Below, piece after piece: positions 19,046 to 37,310 of a DNA stretch of 64,000 bases. Position 1 is the stretch's first letter, and every line of letters starts with the position of its first letter. The stretch is from Flavobacteriales bacterium (lineage in GTDB: Bacteria > Bacteroidota > Bacteroidia > Flavobacteriales_D > Parvicellaceae). The DNA lies in the NCBI GenBank assembly GCA_029251405.1, contig JAQXDK010000041.1:1-64000 (forward strand), read 5' to 3'. The position numbers were made by a program, and so were the translations under genes. The notes under the pieces are model-generated. The model searched no databases. It worked only from the letters and a program-made list of their open reading frames with translations, and had not been told where the DNA came from.

Positions 19046-19133
19046 TTTTCTAATTTTTACTTTCAATATCGACCTAATAATTTAATTTTTTTCAAATTGT
19101 TTAACTTATTTACTTTTAATTTAAACAAAACTT

Positions 19134-19141
19134 TATATTTT
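19134..19141 (+). promoter_or_regulatory. Tentative -7 element for the TonB receptor
   Basis: TATATTTT matches seven of eight positions of TAnnTTTG and ends six bases before the GTG at 19148 that precedes a clean signal peptide. It supports that start over the upstream TTG at 19097. Confidence 0.35.
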
Positions 19142-19147
19142 CGCATT

Positions 19148-21550
19148 GTGAAAAACTATTTATTTATTATTTACCTCTTATTCAGTTTAACATTTTTTTC
19201 TCAACAGTACACTTTAAGTGGTTATGTTAAAGATGCTAAGACAGGTGAATTTTTAATTGGTGCAACCATATTTGTGGATGGTGAATCAAAAGGTACATCA
19301 AGTAATGTTTACGGATTTTATTCAATAACTCTTAAAGCAGGTGAATCAAATGTTAAATATTCCTACATAGGATATAATGGCAATAATAAAAAAATCAATT
19401 TAACCAGAGATACCCGACTAAATATAGATTTGAAGGAAGCAGGAGATTTACTGGAAGAAGTTATAATTGATGCTTTATCCGATGAAAATACAACAGGAAC
19501 TCAAATGGGTAAAATTGATTTATCAATGGATAAGATTAAAACTATTCCTGCTTTTATGGGGGAAGTTGATGTTCTTAAAACAATTCAGTTTTTACCTGGT
19601 GTTTCATCTGGTGGAGAAGGAAATACAGGCTTTTATGTCAGAGGAGGAGGTCCAGATCAAAATTTAATTTTGTTAGATGAAGCTACTGTATATAATGCTT
19701 CTCATTTATTTGGTTTCTTTTCTGTTTTTAATGCTGATGCTATTAAGAATGTTTCATTAATTAAGGGTGGAATGCCTTCTAATTATGGGGGAAGACTTTC
19801 ATCTGTTTTAGATATTTCTATGAAAGAAGGAAATTATAAAAATTTCCAAATGGATGGTGGGATTGGTGCCATCGCATCCAGATTAACTCTTCAAGGTCCT
19901 ATTAAAGAAGATACAGCATCTTACATTATATCTGGTAGAAGAACTTATATAGATGTTTTGACCAAACCTTTTATTCCAGATACATCTTCTTTTAAGGGGT
20001 CTGGATATTTTTTTTACGACTTAACAGCAAAATTAAACTGGAGGTTATCAGATAGAGACAGGTTGTATTTAAGCAGTTATTTTGGAAGAGATGTTTTTAC
20101 CTTTAATAACCAAGATTTAGACTTTAAATTTAATGTTCCATGGGGTAATGCCACAGCTTCTTTGCGTTGGAATCATCTTTTTAGTGATAAATTATTTGTT
20201 AATACTACAGCAGTTTTTACTGACTATAATTTTGCTTTTGAGGGGGGCGCAAGTGGCTTTAATTTTAAATTAGCTTCTGGAATTAGGGATTTAAACTTAA
20301 AACAAGATTTCACTTTCTACAAAAATTCTCTTCACAATTTAAAGTTTGGTTGGAATTATACTTTTCATAGATTTATACCTTCAAGTTTATCTGCAAGTTC
20401 TGGAGACGTAGAATTCGATACTCAGGACGATGTTAAAGTTTATGGTAATGAATCTGCATTATATTTTCTAGATGAATGGAATGTAAATGAAAATTTAAAA
20501 ATAAATGTTGGTTTTAGGTTATCCATGTACCAACATATAGGTCCGTTTACTAGATATTACAAGAATCCAAATTCAGGTGTTACAGATAGCACCAGAAAAT
20601 ATTCTAGCTTTCAAAACATTAAAACCTATTTTGGACCGGAACCTAGGTTTTCTGCTAGATATTTATTGTCGGATCAATCATCTGTAAAGGTTGGTATTTC
20701 TCATAATTATCAATACATTCATCTGGCTTCAATATCTTCAGTTTCTTTACCTACTGATTTATGGTTTCCTAGCACAGAAACAGTAAAGCCTCAAATCGGA
20801 ACTCAATATAATATTGGTTATTTTAAAAATTTCTTTGATAATGAATATGAAGCTTCTGTTGAGATTTATTACAAGGATTTGAAAAACTTAATTGAATACA
20901 AAGAAAATTCTTTCCCAGAAGATAATCTTAATAATAATGTAGATAATCAATTAACTTTTGGAAAGGGTTATTCTTACGGAGCAGAATTTTTTATAAAAAA
21001 AAGAATGGGGGACTTCAATGGGTGGATTGGATATACCTATTCCAAAACCATGCGAAAATTTGATGAAATTGACAATGGAGAATGGTTTCCTGCTAAGTAT
21101 GATAGAAGAAACGATTTGTCAATTGTTGGGCAATATCAAATTAACGATAGAATTAATATTGGAGCTGTCTTTGTTTATGCTACCGGCAACTCTTTGTCAT
21201 TGCCAGAAAGAAGGTGGTTTTCTTTGCAAGAAAACAGAATTATAACTGTATGGAGTAAAAGAAATGAGTACCGATTAGATCCTTATCACAGGGTAGATAT
21301 ATCATTAACAATTGATGCAAAGCCATACAAGAAAATTTTAAATCCAGCAACCAACGAAATAGAAAAAATCGATAAGAAAATAATTTCTTCCTGGAATTTT
21401 TCAGTTTATAACATCTACAATCGCGCAAATCCTTATTTTATCTTTTTTGATTATAGTGGTGATCCACTTCAAGGAACTGCAGAATTTGGTGCAAGCCAGG
21501 TATCGCTGTTTCCAATTTTGCCAAGTATAACCTGGAATTTTAAATTTTAA
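19148..21550 (+). CDS. TonB-dependent receptor with carboxypeptidase-regulatory-like domain
   Basis: About 800 residues from a GTG start chosen because the signal peptide (K-N-Y-L-F-I-I-Y-L-L-F-S-L ... F-S-Q-Q) begins there. A carboxypeptidase-D-like domain follows (G-Y-V-K-D-A-K-T-G-E to D-L-K-E-A-G), then a plug with V-R-G-G-G-P-D-Q-N-L-I-L-L-D-E-A and G-G-M-P-S-N-Y-G-G-R-L-S-S, and a beta-barrel ending in aromatic F-K-F. It imports a ligand across the outer membrane using TonB energy. The DUF4249 lipoprotein gene starts at its stop codon, forming a receptor/lipoprotein pair analogous to SusCD. Ligand unknown. Confidence 0.9.
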   Translation: MKNYLFIIYLLFSLTFFSQQYTLSGYVKDAKTGEFLIGATIFVDGESKGTSSNVYGFYSITLKAGESNVKYSYIGYNGNNKKINLTRDTRLNIDLKEAGDLLEEVIIDALSDENTTGTQMGKIDLSMDKIKTIPAFMGEVDVLKTIQFLPGVSSGGEGNTGFYVRGGGPDQNLILLDEATVYNASHLFGFFSVFNADAIKNVSLIKGGMPSNYGGRLSSVLDISMKEGNYKNFQMDGGIGAIASRLTLQGPIKEDTASYIISGRRTYIDVLTKPFIPDTSSFKGSGYFFYDLTAKLNWRLSDRDRLYLSSYFGRDVFTFNNQDLDFKFNVPWGNATASLRWNHLFSDKLFVNTTAVFTDYNFAFEGGASGFNFKLASGIRDLNLKQDFTFYKNSLHNLKFGWNYTFHRFIPSSLSASSGDVEFDTQDDVKVYGNESALYFLDEWNVNENLKINVGFRLSMYQHIGPFTRYYKNPNSGVTDSTRKYSSFQNIKTYFGPEPRFSARYLLSDQSSVKVGISHNYQYIHLASISSVSLPTDLWFPSTETVKPQIGTQYNIGYFKNFFDNEYEASVEIYYKDLKNLIEYKENSFPEDNLNNNVDNQLTFGKGYSYGAEFFIKKRMGDFNGWIGYTYSKTMRKFDEIDNGEWFPAKYDRRNDLSIVGQYQINDRINIGAVFVYATGNSLSLPERRWFSLQENRIITVWSKRNEYRLDPYHRVDISLTIDAKPYKKILNPATNEIEKIDKKIISSWNFSVYNIYNRANPYFIFFDYSGDPLQGTAEFGASQVSLFPILPSITWNFKF

Positions 21551-30130: not shown

Positions 30131-31417
30131 TTAAACAAGAACAGAATTGATTCCTTCTTTATAGGTTTCAATTGCCCTTTGTCTAGCCATCGGGTGCTCT
30201 ACCATTGGTTGAGGATATGAAAATTCATTCAATTCAGGAATCCATTTATTAATATATTGATTCTTATTATCAAATTTTTTTATTTGCTCTGAAGGGTTGA
30301 ATACTCTAAAATAGGGTGCAGCATCACAACCAGTTCCAGCGCTCCATTGCCAGTTTCCGTTATTTGAAGCTAACTCATAATCAAGAAGTTTTTCAGCAAA
30401 ATAAGCTTCTCCCCATCTCCAGTCAATAAGTAGATGTTTACATAAGAAACTTGCTGTAACCATTCTAACTCTATTGTGCATAAAACCAGTAGCATTCAGT
30501 TCTCTCATACCAGCATCCACTAATGGATAACCAGTTTTACCTTCACACCATTTTTTGAATTCATCTTCTTTATTTCTCCACTGAATTCCATCGTATTTTG
30601 CTCTAAAATTCTCTTTAACAACCTTAGGGAAATGCCATAGTATTTGCATGAAAAATTCTCTCCATATTAACTCACTTAGGTAAGTGCTGTTAACATCTTT
30701 TACGTTTTCAACTATTTCTCTTATGCTAACAGTTCCAAACCTTAAGTGGGGACCTATTTTAGATGTACTATCTAAGGAGGGGAAGTTTCTAGTTTCATCA
30801 TATTTAGCAACTACTTTTAAGTCAAAATCAGGAACTTTTATAGTAGACTCTTCAAACCCCAAATCCTCCATACTTGGAAAGGTGTAATTAGATTTAACTA
30901 AATTTTTTAACTCAGGGTTTTTATAAATAATATTCTTAGTAGATCTAAATTTTTCTAGCCATTTGTTTTTAAAAGGAGTGAACACGGTATAGGGCAATCC
31001 GTCTTTTTTGACTACTTCGTTTTGTTCAAAAACCACTTGGTCTTTATAAGATTTTAACTGTCCTCCAAAATCTTTTAATAATTCAAATATTGAAGAATCT
31101 CTTTCAAGTGCATAAGGTTCGTAGTCTCTATTGATGTATACATTATTTACGCGGTTGTTGTAAAGTATCTCCGTAAATATTTTGTATGGATCACCATAAA
31201 ATATTTTGAGAGAGCTACCGTGTTTTTTTAATTCGACATTAATACTGTTTAACTGTTGGTATATAAAAGTTATTCTTGCATCATTGTAGGGAAGTTCTTC
31301 CACAATATTGTCATCAAAAATAAAAATGGGTTGAATATTTTTTCCATTTATTAGTGCATTATATAATGCAGTGTTATCATTTATTCTTAAATCTCTTCTA
31401 AACCAAAATATATCCAT
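30131..31417 (-). CDS. phrB: Deoxyribodipyrimidine photolyase / cryptochrome family
   Basis: 428 residues. N-terminal antenna-chromophore domain beginning W-F-R-R-D-L-R (5-11), and C-terminal FAD domain with L-S-E-L-I-W-R-E-F, G-K-T-G-Y-P-L-V-D-A-G-M-R-E-L, H-N-R-V-R-M, and N-N-G-N-W-Q-W-S-A-G-T-G-C-D-A-A-P-Y-F-R. These are standard for light-driven repair of cyclobutane pyrimidine dimers. It is the last gene of a five-gene operon whose other members make or handle pterins; the folate/pterin antenna used by many photolyases gives a direct reason for that linkage. A pure photoreceptor role cannot be excluded. Confidence 0.92.
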   Translation of the reverse strand: MDIFWFRRDLRINDNTALYNALINGKNIQPIFIFDDNIVEELPYNDARITFIYQQLNSINVELKKHGSSLKIFYGDPYKIFTEILYNNRVNNVYINRDYEPYALERDSSIFELLKDFGGQLKSYKDQVVFEQNEVVKKDGLPYTVFTPFKNKWLEKFRSTKNIIYKNPELKNLVKSNYTFPSMEDLGFEESTIKVPDFDLKVVAKYDETRNFPSLDSTSKIGPHLRFGTVSIREIVENVKDVNSTYLSELIWREFFMQILWHFPKVVKENFRAKYDGIQWRNKEDEFKKWCEGKTGYPLVDAGMRELNATGFMHNRVRMVTASFLCKHLLIDWRWGEAYFAEKLLDYELASNNGNWQWSAGTGCDAAPYFRVFNPSEQIKKFDNKNQYINKWIPELNEFSYPQPMVEHPMARQRAIETYKEGINSVLV

Positions 31418-31419
31418 AT

Positions 31420-32094
31420 TTAAACTTTTAATGTAGACATTCCTCCATCAACATGTAGAATCTGCCCGGTTATGTTATTGTTTTCAAGTAAAAAAACAGC
31501 AGTATTAGCTACATCATCAACTGAATTAATTCTTTTACTTGGATGTCTTTCATCCGATCTTTTAATAGCTTCTTCGTTTCTAAGAATCCCTTCTGCAAGC
31601 GGTGTGTTTGTTAATGTTGGAGCTATACAGTTTACTCTTATTTTGCCAGCAAATTCCGCTGCTAATGATTTTGTTAATCCTTCAACAGCACCTTTTGCCG
31701 CAGCTATGGAAGCATGAAATGGCATACCTTGGGATACAGCGACGGTACTAAATAAAGTAATGGAAGCATTTTCAGATTTAGTTAAATTTCTTTGGTATTT
31801 TTTTATGATGCTAACAGCTCCCATGAAATTCACATTAAAATCATTCAAAAAATCTTCTTCTTTTAAAGATCTAAAAGGTTTTAAATTAATTGTCCCTGGA
31901 CAATATATTATGGATGATAAATCTTCTATATCTGGAAATTCTGCATTTTTCACATCTAGATTGTAATAAATATGATTGCTGTTAGTGGAGCTGATTTCAT
32001 TTCTACTAAAAATTATACAATCACTATTTTCTAAAAGTTCTGAAATTCGTTTTCCAATCCCTTTTGTTCCTCCTACAATTAAAGTTTTACTCAT
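31420..32094 (-). CDS. Atypical short-chain dehydrogenase/reductase lacking the catalytic Tyr
   Basis: 224 residues with the Rossmann glycine motif G-G-T-K-G-I-G (8-14) and C-terminal H-V-D-G-G. The active-site stretch reads M-P-F-H-A-S-I-A-A-A-K: the lysine of Y-x-x-x-K is present but the tyrosine position is isoleucine (codon ATA on the minus strand near 31706). The protein therefore may not be a classical reductase. Its place between SRPBCC and photolyase, 2 bp from the latter and overlapping the former by 8 bp, suggests a pteridine-related task, comparable by position to sepiapterin or pteridine reductases. Confidence 0.85.
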   Translation of the reverse strand: MSKTLIVGGTKGIGKRISELLENSDCIIFSRNEISSTNSNHIYYNLDVKNAEFPDIEDLSSIIYCPGTINLKPFRSLKEEDFLNDFNVNFMGAVSIIKKYQRNLTKSENASITLFSTVAVSQGMPFHASIAAAKGAVEGLTKSLAAEFAGKIRVNCIAPTLTNTPLAEGILRNEEAIKRSDERHPSKRINSVDDVANTAVFLLENNNITGQILHVDGGMSTLKV

Positions 32095-32569
32095 TATTAA
32101 ATTTTTCTTCTATTATTTTTATGCGGTAATTAAATATTTTTTTCAGTTGGGGTTTTACTAAAATTGGCACGAAAAGTCTTCCTAAAAAACCAAATGGAAC
32201 TTTAAAAGATACTTTATCAGTCATTTCAACTTGATCGCCAGATTTTAAAAAAAGATGCTCATGGTGCCACATGGTGTAGGGTCCAAACCTTTGTTCATCA
32301 ACAAAAAACATTTTATCATTGATGTGTGTTATTTCGGTAACCCAATTTAAATTGATGCCAAACAAAGGGGAAACTTTATAAGAGATGATTTGACCTACGT
32401 ACATTTCATCAGCTGTTTCAGATGTAATATTGAATCCCATTTTTGCAGGAGTAATTTTACTTAGGTTTTTTGGGTTAGAGAAAAAATTCCAAGCCTCGTC
32501 TAAAGACATTTTAACGTTTTGTTTTACTTTAAGAGTATAAATCCCTGAATGTTGGCTGAAACTTATCAT
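32087..32569 (-). CDS. SRPBCC family ligand-binding protein
   Basis: 160 residues forming the helix-grip START-like fold: initial beta-strand with L-K-V-K-Q-N-V-K-M-S, A-W-N-F-F-S-N-P-K-N-L near residue 28, T-P-A-K-M-G-F, and a C-terminal amphipathic helix. SRPBCC proteins bind hydrophobic or aromatic small molecules; some are cyclases. In this operon the natural guess is a pterin or flavin-related ligand, but no residue proves it. It overlaps folE by 4 bp and the SDR by 8 bp. Confidence 0.82.
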   Translation of the reverse strand: MISFSQHSGIYTLKVKQNVKMSLDEAWNFFSNPKNLSKITPAKMGFNITSETADEMYVGQIISYKVSPLFGINLNWVTEITHINDKMFFVDEQRFGPYTMWHHEHLFLKSGDQVEMTDKVSFKVPFGFLGRLFVPILVKPQLKKIFNYRIKIIEEKFNNE

Positions 32570-33258
32570 GAAGTCAAATAATGAAGAAATTCTTTTTTAG
32601 TAGATTCGGTTTTAAAAGCTCCTGAATAATAAGAAGTTGTTGTTGTTGAAGTATCGTCTTTAATTCCTCTGGAGGACACACATAAATGTTTTGCGTCTAT
32701 TACAACAGCAACATCTTCTGTATCCAATATTTCTTTAAGTTCGTTACCAATCTGGTTGGTAAGTCTCTCCTGAACTTGTGGTCTTTTTGCAAAATATTGA
32801 ACAATTCTATTAATTTTTGATAGCCCAATTACTTTTCCTGAAGAAATGTAGGATACGTGTGCTTTACCAATAATTGGGACAAAATGGTGCTCGCAATTTG
32901 AATAAAACGTTATGTTTTTCTCAACTAACATTTCATTGTATTGATATTTATTGTCAAACAAGGCAATTTTAGGCTTGTTTTTAGGATCTAAGCCATTGAA
33001 TATTTCCTCAACATACATTTTAGCAACTCTTTTAGGTGTACCTTTTAACGAGTCGTCAGTCAAGTCTAAACCTAAGGTTTGCATAATCCCCTTAAAATGT
33101 TGGGCAATAATTTCTTTTTTTTCGTTGTCAGAGATATCAAACGCGTCATCTCTTAAAGGAGTGTCATAGGATGTACTAACATGTTCATCACCAATCTCAT
33201 CATAATTATAATCTATGGATTCATCCTGGGTAAACAACAATGTTTCTTTCAGTTTCAT
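32566..33258 (-). CDS. folE: GTP cyclohydrolase I
   Basis: 230 residues. It converts GTP to 7,8-dihydroneopterin triphosphate, first step of folate and tetrahydrobiopterin synthesis. Zinc ligands are seen in S-N-C-E-H-H-F (about 120-126) and H-L-C-V-S-S-R-G (about 191-198); the substrate-contact G-L-S-K-I-N-R-I-V is intact. An acidic N-terminal extension of about 45 residues precedes the core. It starts 38 bp inside the upstream PTPS gene and overlaps the SRPBCC gene by 4 bp, showing tight coupling. Confidence 0.95.
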   Translation of the reverse strand: MKLKETLLFTQDESIDYNYDEIGDEHVSTSYDTPLRDDAFDISDNEKKEIIAQHFKGIMQTLGLDLTDDSLKGTPKRVAKMYVEEIFNGLDPKNKPKIALFDNKYQYNEMLVEKNITFYSNCEHHFVPIIGKAHVSYISSGKVIGLSKINRIVQYFAKRPQVQERLTNQIGNELKEILDTEDVAVVIDAKHLCVSSRGIKDDTSTTTTSYYSGAFKTESTKKEFLHYLTS

Positions 33259-33643
33259 AAAGTTTAATTTTTAGTTCGAATTTTGAGTCAAGTTTATTTC
33301 TGAGTCTATTGTAAATAACTTTTGAAATATTTTCTGCAGTTGGATTTAATGCTTTAAAATCATCCACATCAAGGTTCAAATTTTTGTGATCGTATCGATC
33401 TAAAATTTCACTTTTGATGGTGTCTGATAATACTTTCATATCAATTAAATATCCGCTTTCTTCATCAGTGTAACCGGTTACTGTAACTTCAAGATCGTAA
33501 TTGTGTCCATGAAAGTTAGGGTTGTTACATTTACCGTAGAATGAAAGATTTTTTTCTTTTGTCCAATTAGGGTTATTAAGCCTATGGGCAGAATTAAAAT
33601 GTTCTTTTCTTATTACAGAGGTTTTATTCATTTTGTTTATCAT
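33221..33643 (-). CDS. 6-pyruvoyl-tetrahydropterin synthase family (PTPS/QueD)
   Basis: 140 residues; start ATG 33643 or Met5 at 33631. Zinc histidines appear in F-N-S-A-H-R and H-G-H-N-Y, the catalytic cysteine in Y-G-K-C-N-N-P-N, and the substrate glutamate in Y-E-T-E-R-N-I-V-V-Y. The C-N-N-P form and the E-T-x-N-N-like end resemble eukaryotic-type PTPS more than QueD, and the partner genes (folE, SDR) fit a tetrahydropterin rather than a queuosine pathway. First gene of the photolyase operon, directly behind a good promoter. Confidence 0.88.
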   Translation of the reverse strand: MINKMNKTSVIRKEHFNSAHRLNNPNWTKEKNLSFYGKCNNPNFHGHNYDLEVTVTGYTDEESGYLIDMKVLSDTIKSEILDRYDHKNLNLDVDDFKALNPTAENISKVIYNRLRNKLDSKFELKIKLYETERNIVVYPG

Positions 33644-33651
33644 TTACGTTT

Positions 33652-33684
33652 CAAACTTAAACAAAAATGTTTAACATTTCCAAA
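33652..33684 (-). promoter_or_regulatory. Promoter of the PTPS-folE-SRPBCC-SDR-photolyase operon
   Basis: On the minus strand TTTG (33684-33681) is followed after 21 bp by TAAGTTTG (33659-33652), a full match to both Bacteroidota promoter boxes. The -7 box ends eight bases before the ATG at 33643. Confidence 0.6.
33665..33679. promoter_or_regulatory. Palindrome in the promoter spacer, candidate operator
   Basis: AAATGTT-T-AACATTT, seven-base arms around one base, lies wholly between the -33 and -7 boxes of the operon promoter. Two more AACATT-containing half-sites follow at 33691-33700 and about 33705-33713. MerR-type activators bind dyads in this position, so a MerR/LitR-like light or B12 regulator is a reasonable candidate; no such gene lies in the window. 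Confidence 0.45.
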
Positions 33685-33727
33685 TAATCATTAAACATTT
33701 TTAAAAAAACATTAATAATTTTCTTTC

Positions 33728-33753: not shown

Positions 33754-34344
33754 TTGGATTTTTATTTAGAAATTATAGCAGTTTTAACTGGGGTTTTCAG
33801 TGTTTGGTTAGCTAAAAAAGAAAATATTTATCTCTATCCTGTCGGAATATTTAGTGTTGTAGCCTGGCTTTATTTATGTTGGGTTGGACAAATATACAGT
33901 CAAGCAATAATCAATCTCTTTTTTTTCATTATGAACGTTTATGGTTGGTATAATTGGAATAGAAAAGATGATAATAACAATAAGGAAATTCGCATAAAAT
34001 TTAATTCACTTAAAGAAAATTTCTTTTACACAATTATTGCTTTGTTATTAACCTTTATAATTTTTAAAATTCTTTCAAATACAGAAGTTGATAACTACAA
34101 TCATTATTATATTTTGATAGAATCTTTTATCACCTCTCTAAATTTCATTGCCATGTGGCTAATGGCTTGGAAAAGAGTTGATAATTGGGTGCTATGGATA
34201 ATAGGTGATTTTTTTTGTATCCCTTTATATTTTTTTAAAGGCTACTACATAAGTACTGCGCAATTTTTAATATTTATTATTATTGCGTTTTTGGGTTATT
34301 TTGAATGGAAGAAAAAAGCATTAAAAAGTCAAAACATATTGTAA
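33754..34344 (+). CDS. pnuC: PnuC family vitamin transporter
   Basis: 196 residues, TTG start, seven hydrophobic segments. The family motif M-N-V-Y-G-W-Y-N-W near residue 63 and the later W-V-L-W-I-I-G-D are characteristic. PnuC proteins carry nicotinamide riboside by facilitated diffusion, with a kinase trapping the product; the PnuT branch in Bacteroidota is predicted to carry thiamine. Here a NadR-type kinase overlaps the gene by 40 bp, which fits nicotinamide riboside, while the adjacent TPP riboswitch fits thiamine. Substrate left open. Confidence 0.88.
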   Translation: MDFYLEIIAVLTGVFSVWLAKKENIYLYPVGIFSVVAWLYLCWVGQIYSQAIINLFFFIMNVYGWYNWNRKDDNNNKEIRIKFNSLKENFFYTIIALLLTFIIFKILSNTEVDNYNHYYILIESFITSLNFIAMWLMAWKRVDNWVLWIIGDFFCIPLYFFKGYYISTAQFLIFIIIAFLGYFEWKKKALKSQNIL

Positions 34345-35009: not shown

Positions 35010-37310
35010 ATGAAAAATATATATTTACTATCAATTCTTGGATTATTTGTTTCCAATAAATTTTATTCACAATCCGATTCTACACAATCAACTTTAAAAG
35101 AGTTTGAAGTTACCACAACAAGAGTTGGCGAAAAAAGCCCAATAGCTCACGAAAATATTTCTAAAGAAGAAATAGAAGTAAATAACCATGGAGTTGATTT
35201 ACCTATTTTATTAGACCAAGCTACATCGATAGTTACAACATCAGATGCTGGTGCAGGAGTAGGGTACACAGGAATTCGTGTCAGGGGAAGCGATGCAACT
35301 AGAGTTAATGTAACTATAAATGGAATCCCTTTTAATGATGCTGAAGGACAAGGAGTGTATTGGGTAAATATGCCAGATATTTCTTCTTCAACTGATGCAA
35401 TTCAAATACAGAGAGGAGTTGGAGCATCTGCCACTGGAGCTTCAGCTTTCGGAGCCAGTATAAACTTGAGTACTTTAAGTACTGTAAATGCTAATAAACC
35501 CTATGGTGAAATTTCAAATAGTTTAGGATCCTTTAATACCTTTAAAAATACTGTAAAAATAGGTACTGGAATTATGGATGGTAAATGGAATTTTGAAGGT
35601 AGATTTTCGAATTTAATGTCCGATGGTTTTATTGATAGAGCATCTTCTGACCTCCAATCTTATTACTTGTCTGGAAGTTATTTAGGTGAAAATACTGCTA
35701 TTCAAGCTTTAATATTTTCAGGAAATGAAAAAACATACCAATCTTGGGCAGGGACACCATTAAGGGTTTTAGATACCAATCAAACTTACAACCCTTACAC
35801 ATACGATAATCAGATAGATAACTATACTCAAACCCATTATCAGTTACACTTCACTAATAAAACAAATAATAAATTGAAGCTGAATGCTTCTTTACACTAT
35901 ACAAGAGGATTCGGTTATTATGAAAGTTATAAACCAGACGAATTATTATCAGATTACAATTTAGCTAACATATCAACCTCATTAATTGGCGATACTATTC
36001 TAATTACTGATATGGACAGTCTTAGTCCCAATTATCAAGATACTTTATATTTTAATTTAGTTGGCGATACTACTATTGAAATAGCAAATTCTGATGTTAT
36101 AAATAGAAAATGGTTGGATAATCATTTTTACGGCATTGTGTACTCTGCAGAATATATTGCAGAAAAGTTCCAACTCGTATTAGGCGGAGGAGCTAATCAA
36201 TATAAAGGAGGACATTATGGTGAAGTGATATGGGCTCAAAATGCTAGTAATGGTGAAATAAGACATAAATATTATAATAACAATGCTCTAAAGACAGATG
36301 TGAATGTTTATGGAAAGTTAAATTATAATTTTCAAAATAATTTAAGTGCTTATTTAGACGCACAATACAGAACCATCAGTTATAAACTTTCTGGTCTTGA
36401 GGAGGGTAATTTTTCTGTAGATGATACCATTAATATGAACTTCTTCAACCCGAAGGTGGGTTTTAATTATGTAGTAAATAAAAATACAAGTTTTTATGGC
36501 TTTGCAGGAATTGGCAATAAGGAACCTAACAGAACAGACATTGTAGAGTCAGTCGAAACACCAACTCACGAAAGTATGTTAGATATAGAATTTGGATACA
36601 GATTAAAAACAAATAAAGTGAGTCTAGTAGTTAATCTATATAACATGCAATATAGAAATCAATTAATTCTTACTGGTAATGTCAATGATGTGGGTTCACC
36701 AATCAGGATTAACGTTCCAAATAGCTTTAGAAGAGGTTTAGAATTAACAACATCAATAAAATTAAATAATCAATTCAATTTAAGATTTAACACTACTTTA
36801 AGTGAAAATAAGATAACTGAATTTACAGAATTTATAGATGATTGGGATTTAGGAAGTCAGGTTAAAGAATTTCACAGAAATACCAATATTGCTTTTTCAC
36901 CCTCTATAATTAGTGGAGGACAATTAATTTTCACACCATTTAATCCAGCTGATAAAGCAAGATTAGATTTAGCTTTGGTCACTAAATATGTTGGATCACA
37001 ATATTTAGATAATACCTCCAGCGAGTATGGAAAATTAGATGCGTATTTTGTTCACGACTTTAGAATAAACTATGCTGTAAAAACAAAAATATTTAAAGAA
37101 TTAGTTGTTAGTTCTTGGGTGAGAAACTTACTCAATCGTAATTACATATCTAATGCTTGGATATATAGATTTCAGTCAGTTGGTTACAACCCAATTAATG
37201 ATGATCCATCTACAAATGAAGAAAATTCAACTTCCAATAGATACAACATGATTGGGGCTTACAACCAGGCTGGAATAAATTTCTTTATAGGACTAAAGTT
37301 GAAGTTTTAA
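35010..37310 (+). CDS. TonB-dependent receptor, thiamine-regulated
   Basis: 766 residues. Signal peptide to about residue 20 (K-F-Y-S-Q), a plug with V-R-G-S-D-A-T-R-V-N-V-T-I-N-G-I-P and Q-R-G-V-G-A-S-A-T-G, and a large beta-barrel finishing with aromatic K-L-K-F. No carboxypeptidase-like front domain. Being the only gene behind the TPP riboswitch, it very likely imports thiamine, its phosphates or a precursor across the outer membrane. Separated from the convergent M1 peptidase by 4 bp. Confidence 0.92.
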   Translation: MKNIYLLSILGLFVSNKFYSQSDSTQSTLKEFEVTTTRVGEKSPIAHENISKEEIEVNNHGVDLPILLDQATSIVTTSDAGAGVGYTGIRVRGSDATRVNVTINGIPFNDAEGQGVYWVNMPDISSSTDAIQIQRGVGASATGASAFGASINLSTLSTVNANKPYGEISNSLGSFNTFKNTVKIGTGIMDGKWNFEGRFSNLMSDGFIDRASSDLQSYYLSGSYLGENTAIQALIFSGNEKTYQSWAGTPLRVLDTNQTYNPYTYDNQIDNYTQTHYQLHFTNKTNNKLKLNASLHYTRGFGYYESYKPDELLSDYNLANISTSLIGDTILITDMDSLSPNYQDTLYFNLVGDTTIEIANSDVINRKWLDNHFYGIVYSAEYIAEKFQLVLGGGANQYKGGHYGEVIWAQNASNGEIRHKYYNNNALKTDVNVYGKLNYNFQNNLSAYLDAQYRTISYKLSGLEEGNFSVDDTINMNFFNPKVGFNYVVNKNTSFYGFAGIGNKEPNRTDIVESVETPTHESMLDIEFGYRLKTNKVSLVVNLYNMQYRNQLILTGNVNDVGSPIRINVPNSFRRGLELTTSIKLNNQFNLRFNTTLSENKITEFTEFIDDWDLGSQVKEFHRNTNIAFSPSIISGGQLIFTPFNPADKARLDLALVTKYVGSQYLDNTSSEYGKLDAYFVHDFRINYAVKTKIFKELVVSSWVRNLLNRNYISNAWIYRFQSVGYNPINDDPSTNEENSTSNRYNMIGAYNQAGINFFIGLKLKF

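Follow-up and report, generated by a model that had tools for sequence, protein, structure and literature searches.

CarH of Thermus thermophilus and Myxococcus xanthus pairs a MerR winged helix with a B12-binding C-terminus, and its operators, built of 11 bp direct repeats (nAnnTnnACAn), cover the promoter and block RNA polymerase in the dark (PMC8156234). In Pseudomonas, class II LitR proteins (PplR/PmlR2) control light-inducible phrB, a short-chain dehydrogenase (SDR) gene, folE and other photoprotection genes; PmlR2 of P. mendocina is the effector of a light–oxygen–voltage (LOV) photoreceptor and represses in the dark from one site over the −35 element and one between the transcription start site and the ATG (PMC9758184). 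Here, we describe, from computational analysis, a five-gene operon with genes for pterin synthesis and DNA photolyase in a 64,000-nucleotide stretch of a Flavobacteriales bacterium (GCA_029251405.1, contig JAQXDK010000041.1, positions 1 to 64,000), hereafter the window. We give a probability of about 0.78 to the reading that this operon belongs to a sunlight regulon under a MerR–cobalamin photoreceptor of the LitR/CarH type, repressed in the dark and released by light.

Dokdonia MED134 has a light response, summarised in PMC9040609, that takes in proteorhodopsin, retinal biosynthesis, cryptochrome and photolyase; neither a regulator nor an operator was named there, and both are proposed here. 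That response fits the LitR reading, but concerns another species. In the searchable literature, which most subscription papers lie outside, no regulator of light-induced proteorhodopsin is named, and we found in it neither a LitR/CarH–proteorhodopsin link nor a flavobacterial light regulon naming folE or fasciclin.

Results

An inverted repeat of fixed spacing at the operon promoter

Footprinting upstream of the first gene of the operon, which encodes a 6-pyruvoyl-tetrahydropterin synthase (PTPS), identified two words that are invariant in relatives, TGTTTAA and TTAAACA, and with them a 30 bp dyad, TGTTTAA-N16-TTAAACA. Two copies lie at the PTPS promoter (candidate operators 1 and 2; Table 1); together they cover both promoter elements (−33 and −7) as well as the leader, with the right half of operator 2 just ahead of the likely PTPS start codon at 33631. 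The spacing was varied from x = 4 to 33 (30 spacings) in TGTTTAA-Nx-TTAAACA over the whole genome (2.23 Mb, 53 contigs, 97% complete; near contigs are deposited as Bacteroidetes bacterium MED-G20 and Crocinitomicaceae) and compared with a reversed-letter control. All eight perfect dyads had x = 16, against three in the control over the 30 spacings and none there at x = 15–17; at one mismatch or fewer, dyads numbered 25 in the genome and five in the control.

PTPS similarity was used to collect 80 named Bacteroidota loci. Of the 42 spaced pairs in them, 39 were N16 (control, one), and PTPS is preceded by a dyad with no more than one mismatch in 37 of 79 loci, where first-order shuffles predict 0.1; Algoriphagus, Marivirga and Gilvibacter (L118, L142 and L172) are examples. 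At the orthologous operons of the four nearest genera it is retained in 12 of 13 genomes. The PTPS–folE pair has the dyad across the phylum whether or not a photolyase gene is nearby.

An earlier operator candidate, TTAAACA-N3-5-TGTTTAA, was discarded; it occurs once per genome, in the near genera invariably at PTPS, and is no more than the boundary where operators 1 and 2 meet, while two matches in the distant genus g8 fall inside citrate synthase genes. Dyadobacter/Spirosoma-like loci (L114, L123, L125, L133, L147, L158 and L166) carry another word, approximately GTTG(T/G)ACACA(A/T)ACTTTGTAACGACA, upstream of PTPS, and some of them also have a one-mismatch dyad farther upstream; this word is possibly the site of a second regulator or a diverged operator.

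The candidate regulator and its co-occurrence with the dyad

The genome has two MerR genes, of which litR (292 aa) alone encodes both a MerR DNA-binding domain (PF13411, E = 2e-14) and a B12-binding domain (PF02607). LitR aligns to T. thermophilus CarH; it has the adenosyl-capping motif Wx9EH (W139, E149, H150), which 72 of 76 homologues share, and the axial His, kept in 75 of 76. Its gene heads the operon crtI–crtB–crtZ-like–lycopene cyclase, and a perfect dyad (C47:32771-32800) ends 1 bp before its ATG (32802) at a site conserved across the near genera; the PTPS operon and the litR/crt promoter have this operator in common. The second MerR gene (C20:20672) sits among cell-envelope genes.

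Of 106 genomes surveyed in the same class, 77 have litR and 29 do not. The former hold 234 dyads (mean 3.04; control 34, mean 0.44) and the latter 11 (mean 0.38; control 8, mean 0.28); family f7, the largest, has four litR-negative genomes, all without a dyad. A dyad lies within 300 bp of litR in 20 of the 32 litR-positive genomes with dyad positions listed. PTPS–folE is physically linked to litR at five loci (L117, L121, L144, L156 and L179), and in L117 genes for an SDR and an SRPBCC protein diverge from PTPS–folE–litR–crtI–crtB–crtZ–crtY. It is from this co-occurrence that we infer LitR to be the protein that reads the dyad.

Two further observations concern litR. A TonB-dependent receptor gene (L037:6215-8683, minus strand) diverges from it in G000:C47 with a common operator region, and nearly all Bacteroidota LitR proteins lack a His beside the Trp of the capping motif, having Ser, Gln, Leu or others.

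Genes downstream of the dyad, including proteorhodopsin

Each of the eight perfect dyads sits upstream of a gene: the PTPS operon, litR and the genes for hydroxymethylglutaryl-CoA (HMG-CoA) reductase, glutathione peroxidase (GPx), a FAS1 protein, an ABC transporter beside a flavin-reductase/photolyase-like pair, a TonB receptor and a secreted protein. Dyads with one mismatch precede the genes for DUF429 and an Fe–S-type photolyase-related protein (divergent from SOUL), for an ABA4-like protein and, twice in tandem, for proteorhodopsin. The dyads overlap or contain −7-like elements at PTPS, litR, HMG-CoA reductase, GPx, proteorhodopsin and others; for litR, GPx and the secreted protein, the dyad is located either at this element or downstream of it.

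The proteorhodopsin carries the proton-pump motif D-T-E (read from the sequence as RYVDWILTVPLMCVE). Its tandem dyads are 44 bp apart, with the −7 element TATATTTG inside the second. We compared 25 related Bacteroidota rhodopsins and found a dyad, perfect or with one mismatch, in the approximately 300 bp upstream of 11 of the 15 from litR-positive genomes, but of none of the 10 from litR-negative ones (0.04 expected overall); three perfect rhodopsin dyads (L215, L218 and L222) turned up independently in the dyad scan. We lean towards a reading in which a LitR/CarH-type B12 photoreceptor acts through the N16 dyad across Bacteroidota and has proteorhodopsin under its direct control, along with genes for carotenoids, the mevalonate pathway, pterin, photolyase and peroxide defence.

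The second perfect dyad in the window (Table 1) is followed by a TonB-dependent receptor gene (19097-21550) and a lipoprotein-like gene. In genus g2, the receptor's homologue (L274) comes with a perfect dyad too, and this outer-membrane uptake system may be light-regulated.

The operon and its products

The genes run in the order PTPS–folE–SRPBCC–SDR–photolyase on the minus strand (33643-30131) and are translationally coupled, with overlaps of 38 bp (PTPS/folE), 4 bp (folE/SRPBCC) and 8 bp (SRPBCC/SDR) and a gap of 2 bp between the SDR and photolyase genes. An annotation made from the letters of the window before this work (the sequence-only reading) had described five minus-strand genes overlapping or at most 2 bp apart, and our analysis matches it letter for letter; its promoter, TTTG-N21-TAAGTTTG with a palindrome inside the 21 bp spacer, is also present as described. 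Since the ATG at 33643 is not conserved among relatives, PTPS translation probably starts at 33631 instead.

The best PDB match of PTPS is rat PTPS (1b66, E = 1e-29), QueD proteins matching at about 5e-6 or weaker. Residues H20, C39, H45, H47, D85, H86 and E130 are invariant in the alignment, and the catalytic Cys, Asp, His and Glu as well as the three Zn-binding His are present, animal PTPS being nearest. The protein scores under the NCBIfam cut-offs of both QueD and 6PTHBS; on this low score and the far weaker PDB matches, QueD was rejected as its identity.

GTP cyclohydrolase I (FolE) and PTPS together would yield 6-pyruvoyl-tetrahydropterin. Judged from sequence, the combination of FolE and a PTPS of eukaryote type suggests a tetrahydrobiopterin-like pathway. 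The likeness to the eukaryotic route (GTP cyclohydrolase I, PTPS and sepiapterin reductase) lies in FolE and the animal-type PTPS signature; the difference lies in the SDR, the candidate for finishing the pathway, which lacks the catalytic Tyr of sepiapterin reductase. Ile or Val replaces the Tyr of YxxxK in every homologue (alignments of 12 and 16), Ser116 is kept, and His127 and Lys134 are invariant, the His standing seven residues ahead of the Lys. With its Ser-Tyr-Lys triad broken, the protein was rejected as a sepiapterin reductase or classical SDR. The Tyr-less subfamily accompanies PTPS–folE in Bacteroidota (L112, L118, L120, L121, L128, L132, L133, L142 and L166).

The SRPBCC gene product had no Pfam or other family match in domain searches; its model resembles SRPBCC/START/PYL/AHSA1-like structures in Foldseek (E = 2e-6), with a cup of the SRPBCC/START type. 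The photolyase matches 4u63, 1tez, 1owl and 1dnp in the PDB, characterised cyclobutane pyrimidine dimer (CPD) photolyases being nearest.

The gene order is conserved in other genomes of the genus and in genera g4 and g5 (one with frameshifts); in two further genomes, one of them g3, the operon is truncated by contig ends. In g2, PTPS and folE are separated from the remaining genes, and in g8 PTPS–folE is divergent from SDR and SRPBCC. The photolyase gene is missing from many PTPS–folE loci. It is possible, if less likely, that the pterin arm serves ordinary metabolism, such as folate or an aromatic amino-acid hydroxylase, and that the photolyase is co-transcribed without a functional tie. FolE does feed folate as well; against this reading, PTPS–folE itself bears the dyad phylum-wide.

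Chitinophagaceae-type loci (L139, L151, L161, L168, L170, L171 and L184) have two tandem PTPS-family genes ahead of folE and a class I/III-type photolyase gene a few kb upstream. In the window, a gene for a PnuC-type vitamin transporter-like protein (33754-34344, plus strand) diverges from the operon, with which it has in common a 110 bp intergenic region containing the candidate LitR operators, and is followed by genes for a P-loop (NadR-like) protein and a TonB receptor (35010-37310).

Table 1. Features of the operon, its promoter and related sites. Positions refer to the window unless a contig is given.
Feature	Position	Strand	Basis or remark
Candidate LitR operator 1, TGTTTAA-N16-TTAAACA, perfect	33668..33697		Spans −33 element; conserved in relatives
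Candidate LitR operator 2, one mismatch	33634..33663		Left half overlaps −7 element
−33 element TTTG	33681..33684	−	Sequence; kept in relatives
−7 element TAAGTTTG	33652..33659	−	Sequence; kept in relatives
Spacer palindrome AAATGTTTAACATTT	33665..33679		Includes right half-site of candidate operator 1
PTPS, eukaryote-type 6-pyruvoyl-tetrahydropterin synthase	33221..33643	−	PF01242, E = 1e-33
folE, GTP cyclohydrolase I	32566..33258	−	TIGR00063, 239 bits (cut-off 181.6)
SRPBCC (START/Bet v1-like) ligand-binding protein	32087..32569	−	AlphaFold2, predicted local distance difference test (pLDDT) 87; Foldseek
SDR-like protein without catalytic Tyr	31420..32094	−	PF13561, E = 3e-35; SDR fold
CPD photolyase, class I/III type	30131..31417	−	PF03441, E = 6e-76; PF00875, E = 6e-39
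Second perfect dyad in the window	19098..19127		Upstream of TonB-dependent receptor gene
Proteorhodopsin gene	G000:C33:27263-27991 (L259:5261-5992)	−	PF01036, E = 3e-37; DTE motif, Met at tuning position

Discussion

In the mechanism that we favour, B12-bound LitR would sit in the dark on the dyads, which lie over both promoter elements and the leader, and would exclude RNA polymerase; in light, the cobalamin bond would break, LitR would release the DNA and the operon would be transcribed. What the sequence shows is the genes, the operator with its exact spacing and targets, and the co-occurrence with LitR; we infer DNA binding by LitR, its release in light, the need for B12, repression and the pterin product. 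We propose dark repression and light release because the layout of the dyads matches that of PmlR2 and agrees with polymerase blocking by CarH. The litR–carotenoid operon and the genes for HMG-CoA reductase, GPx, SOUL, the second (Fe–S-type) photolyase, the ABA4-like protein, the FAS1 protein and proteorhodopsin would be induced together with it. The operon would provide CPD photolyase for DNA repair, FolE and PTPS would make a tetrahydropterin, probably for photoprotection or cofactor use, and the SRPBCC protein and the Tyr-less SDR may be accessory carrier or modifying partners.

The proposed system resembles both of the described ones in part. It has in common with CarH the domain architecture, the Wx9EH motif, the axial His, a gene within a carotenoid operon and operators over the promoter, but its operator is an inverted N16 dyad rather than direct repeats (the half-site still reads TnnACA), and its predicted regulon extends well beyond carotenoids. 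With class II LitR of Pseudomonas it has phrB, SDR and folE targets in common, besides the two-site layout; the Pseudomonas system differs in its half-site (TGTACA with N12), its need of a LOV protein and its use of folM, folE and folX rather than PTPS, and no rhodopsin has been reported for it.

Several observations weigh against the LitR reading. The PTPS promoters of a congener (L013) and of g2 have no dyad at one mismatch or fewer, and four litR-positive rhodopsin genomes have none at the rhodopsin gene. The association of dyad and litR has a Fisher p of about 1e-9, but the genomes are related, so such p-values overstate independence; kinship has less bearing on the N16 specificity and on the comparison with the reversed-letter control. 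The B12 motif of LitR in this lineage is ExHxxA (Glu and axial His kept, Gly to Ala), compared with ExHxxG in 43 of 76 homologues. The residue next to Trp is Ser, where photolysed CarH has a His as its second (bis-His) axial ligand. Owing to these two changes, in which LitR departs from CarH, its photochemistry may differ as well.

The same two changes bear on an alternative in which LitR acts on the dyad but, instead of sensing light itself by way of B12, responds to a partner protein or a redox signal, much as class II LitR works with a LOV protein (PMC9758184). We regard this as unlikely in view of the near-universal Wx9EH motif and axial His among the homologues and the detected B12-binding domain. 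Less probable still is that another regulator, such as the second MerR protein, reads the dyad and LitR is one more target that happens to co-occur with it. Every genome does have many regulators, but litR adjoins the dyad in its own lineage and in most of the listed genomes, litR-negative genomes show no dyad excess, PTPS–folE is linked to litR at the five loci, and the second MerR gene has cell-envelope neighbours.

The sequence-only reading had instead assigned the regulatory role to the spacer palindrome AAATGTTTAACATTT and to a MerR-type activator acting there. The palindrome occurs exactly once in the genome, and with up to two mismatches it is not enriched (99 matches versus 127 in the reversed-letter control). 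It is exact in six of the 13 genomes of the four nearest genera, the host included, and outside the genus it is mostly lost, one g3 genome retaining an exact copy; the right half of the wider, conserved dyad forms its centre. Being neither enriched nor conserved, it was rejected as an operator. Nor is the spacer over-long in the manner of MerR promoters, because it measures 19–21 bp in relatives too. Although LitR belongs to the MerR family and the palindrome does lie within the spacer, an activator dimer that untwists the promoter from AAATGTT-T-AACATTT is thus very improbable, all the more so as the dyads overlap the −33 and −7 elements, as in dark repression by CarH (PMC8156234) and PmlR2 (PMC9758184), and elsewhere lie at or beyond the −7-like element.

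Of the light or B12 control that the sequence-only reading had also proposed, the palindrome and the activator mode fall away, while the LitR/CarH-type gene, the crt operon, the common operator and the phylum-wide co-occurrence favour the control itself. It had suggested looking for a MerR/LitR gene with a cobalamin-binding domain, which is present as the sole MerR–B12 gene at the head of the crt operon, and for sites that recur near carotenoid genes and further photolyase genes, which exist with the N16 dyad as the site. For the pterin cofactor that it had also proposed, FolE and the eukaryote-type PTPS speak in favour and the missing Tyr of the SDR against; this pterin may or may not be the antenna cofactor of the photolyase. 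That reading was right about the genes and the promoter, wrong about the letters that matter, and probably right about the kind of regulator; the finding is real and larger than it had stated.

The present analysis provides a candidate sensor, an exact operator and a target list for the light-responsive genes of marine flavobacteria, and draws attention to a conserved subfamily of Tyr-less SDRs. A LitR regulon would explain why pterin genes accompany photolyase in these genomes. If the proposal is true, one B12-based switch would coordinate light energy gain and protection in a major group of ocean-surface bacteria, and through its control of proteorhodopsin, a single photosensory switch would couple light harvesting with light protection in marine and other bacteria.

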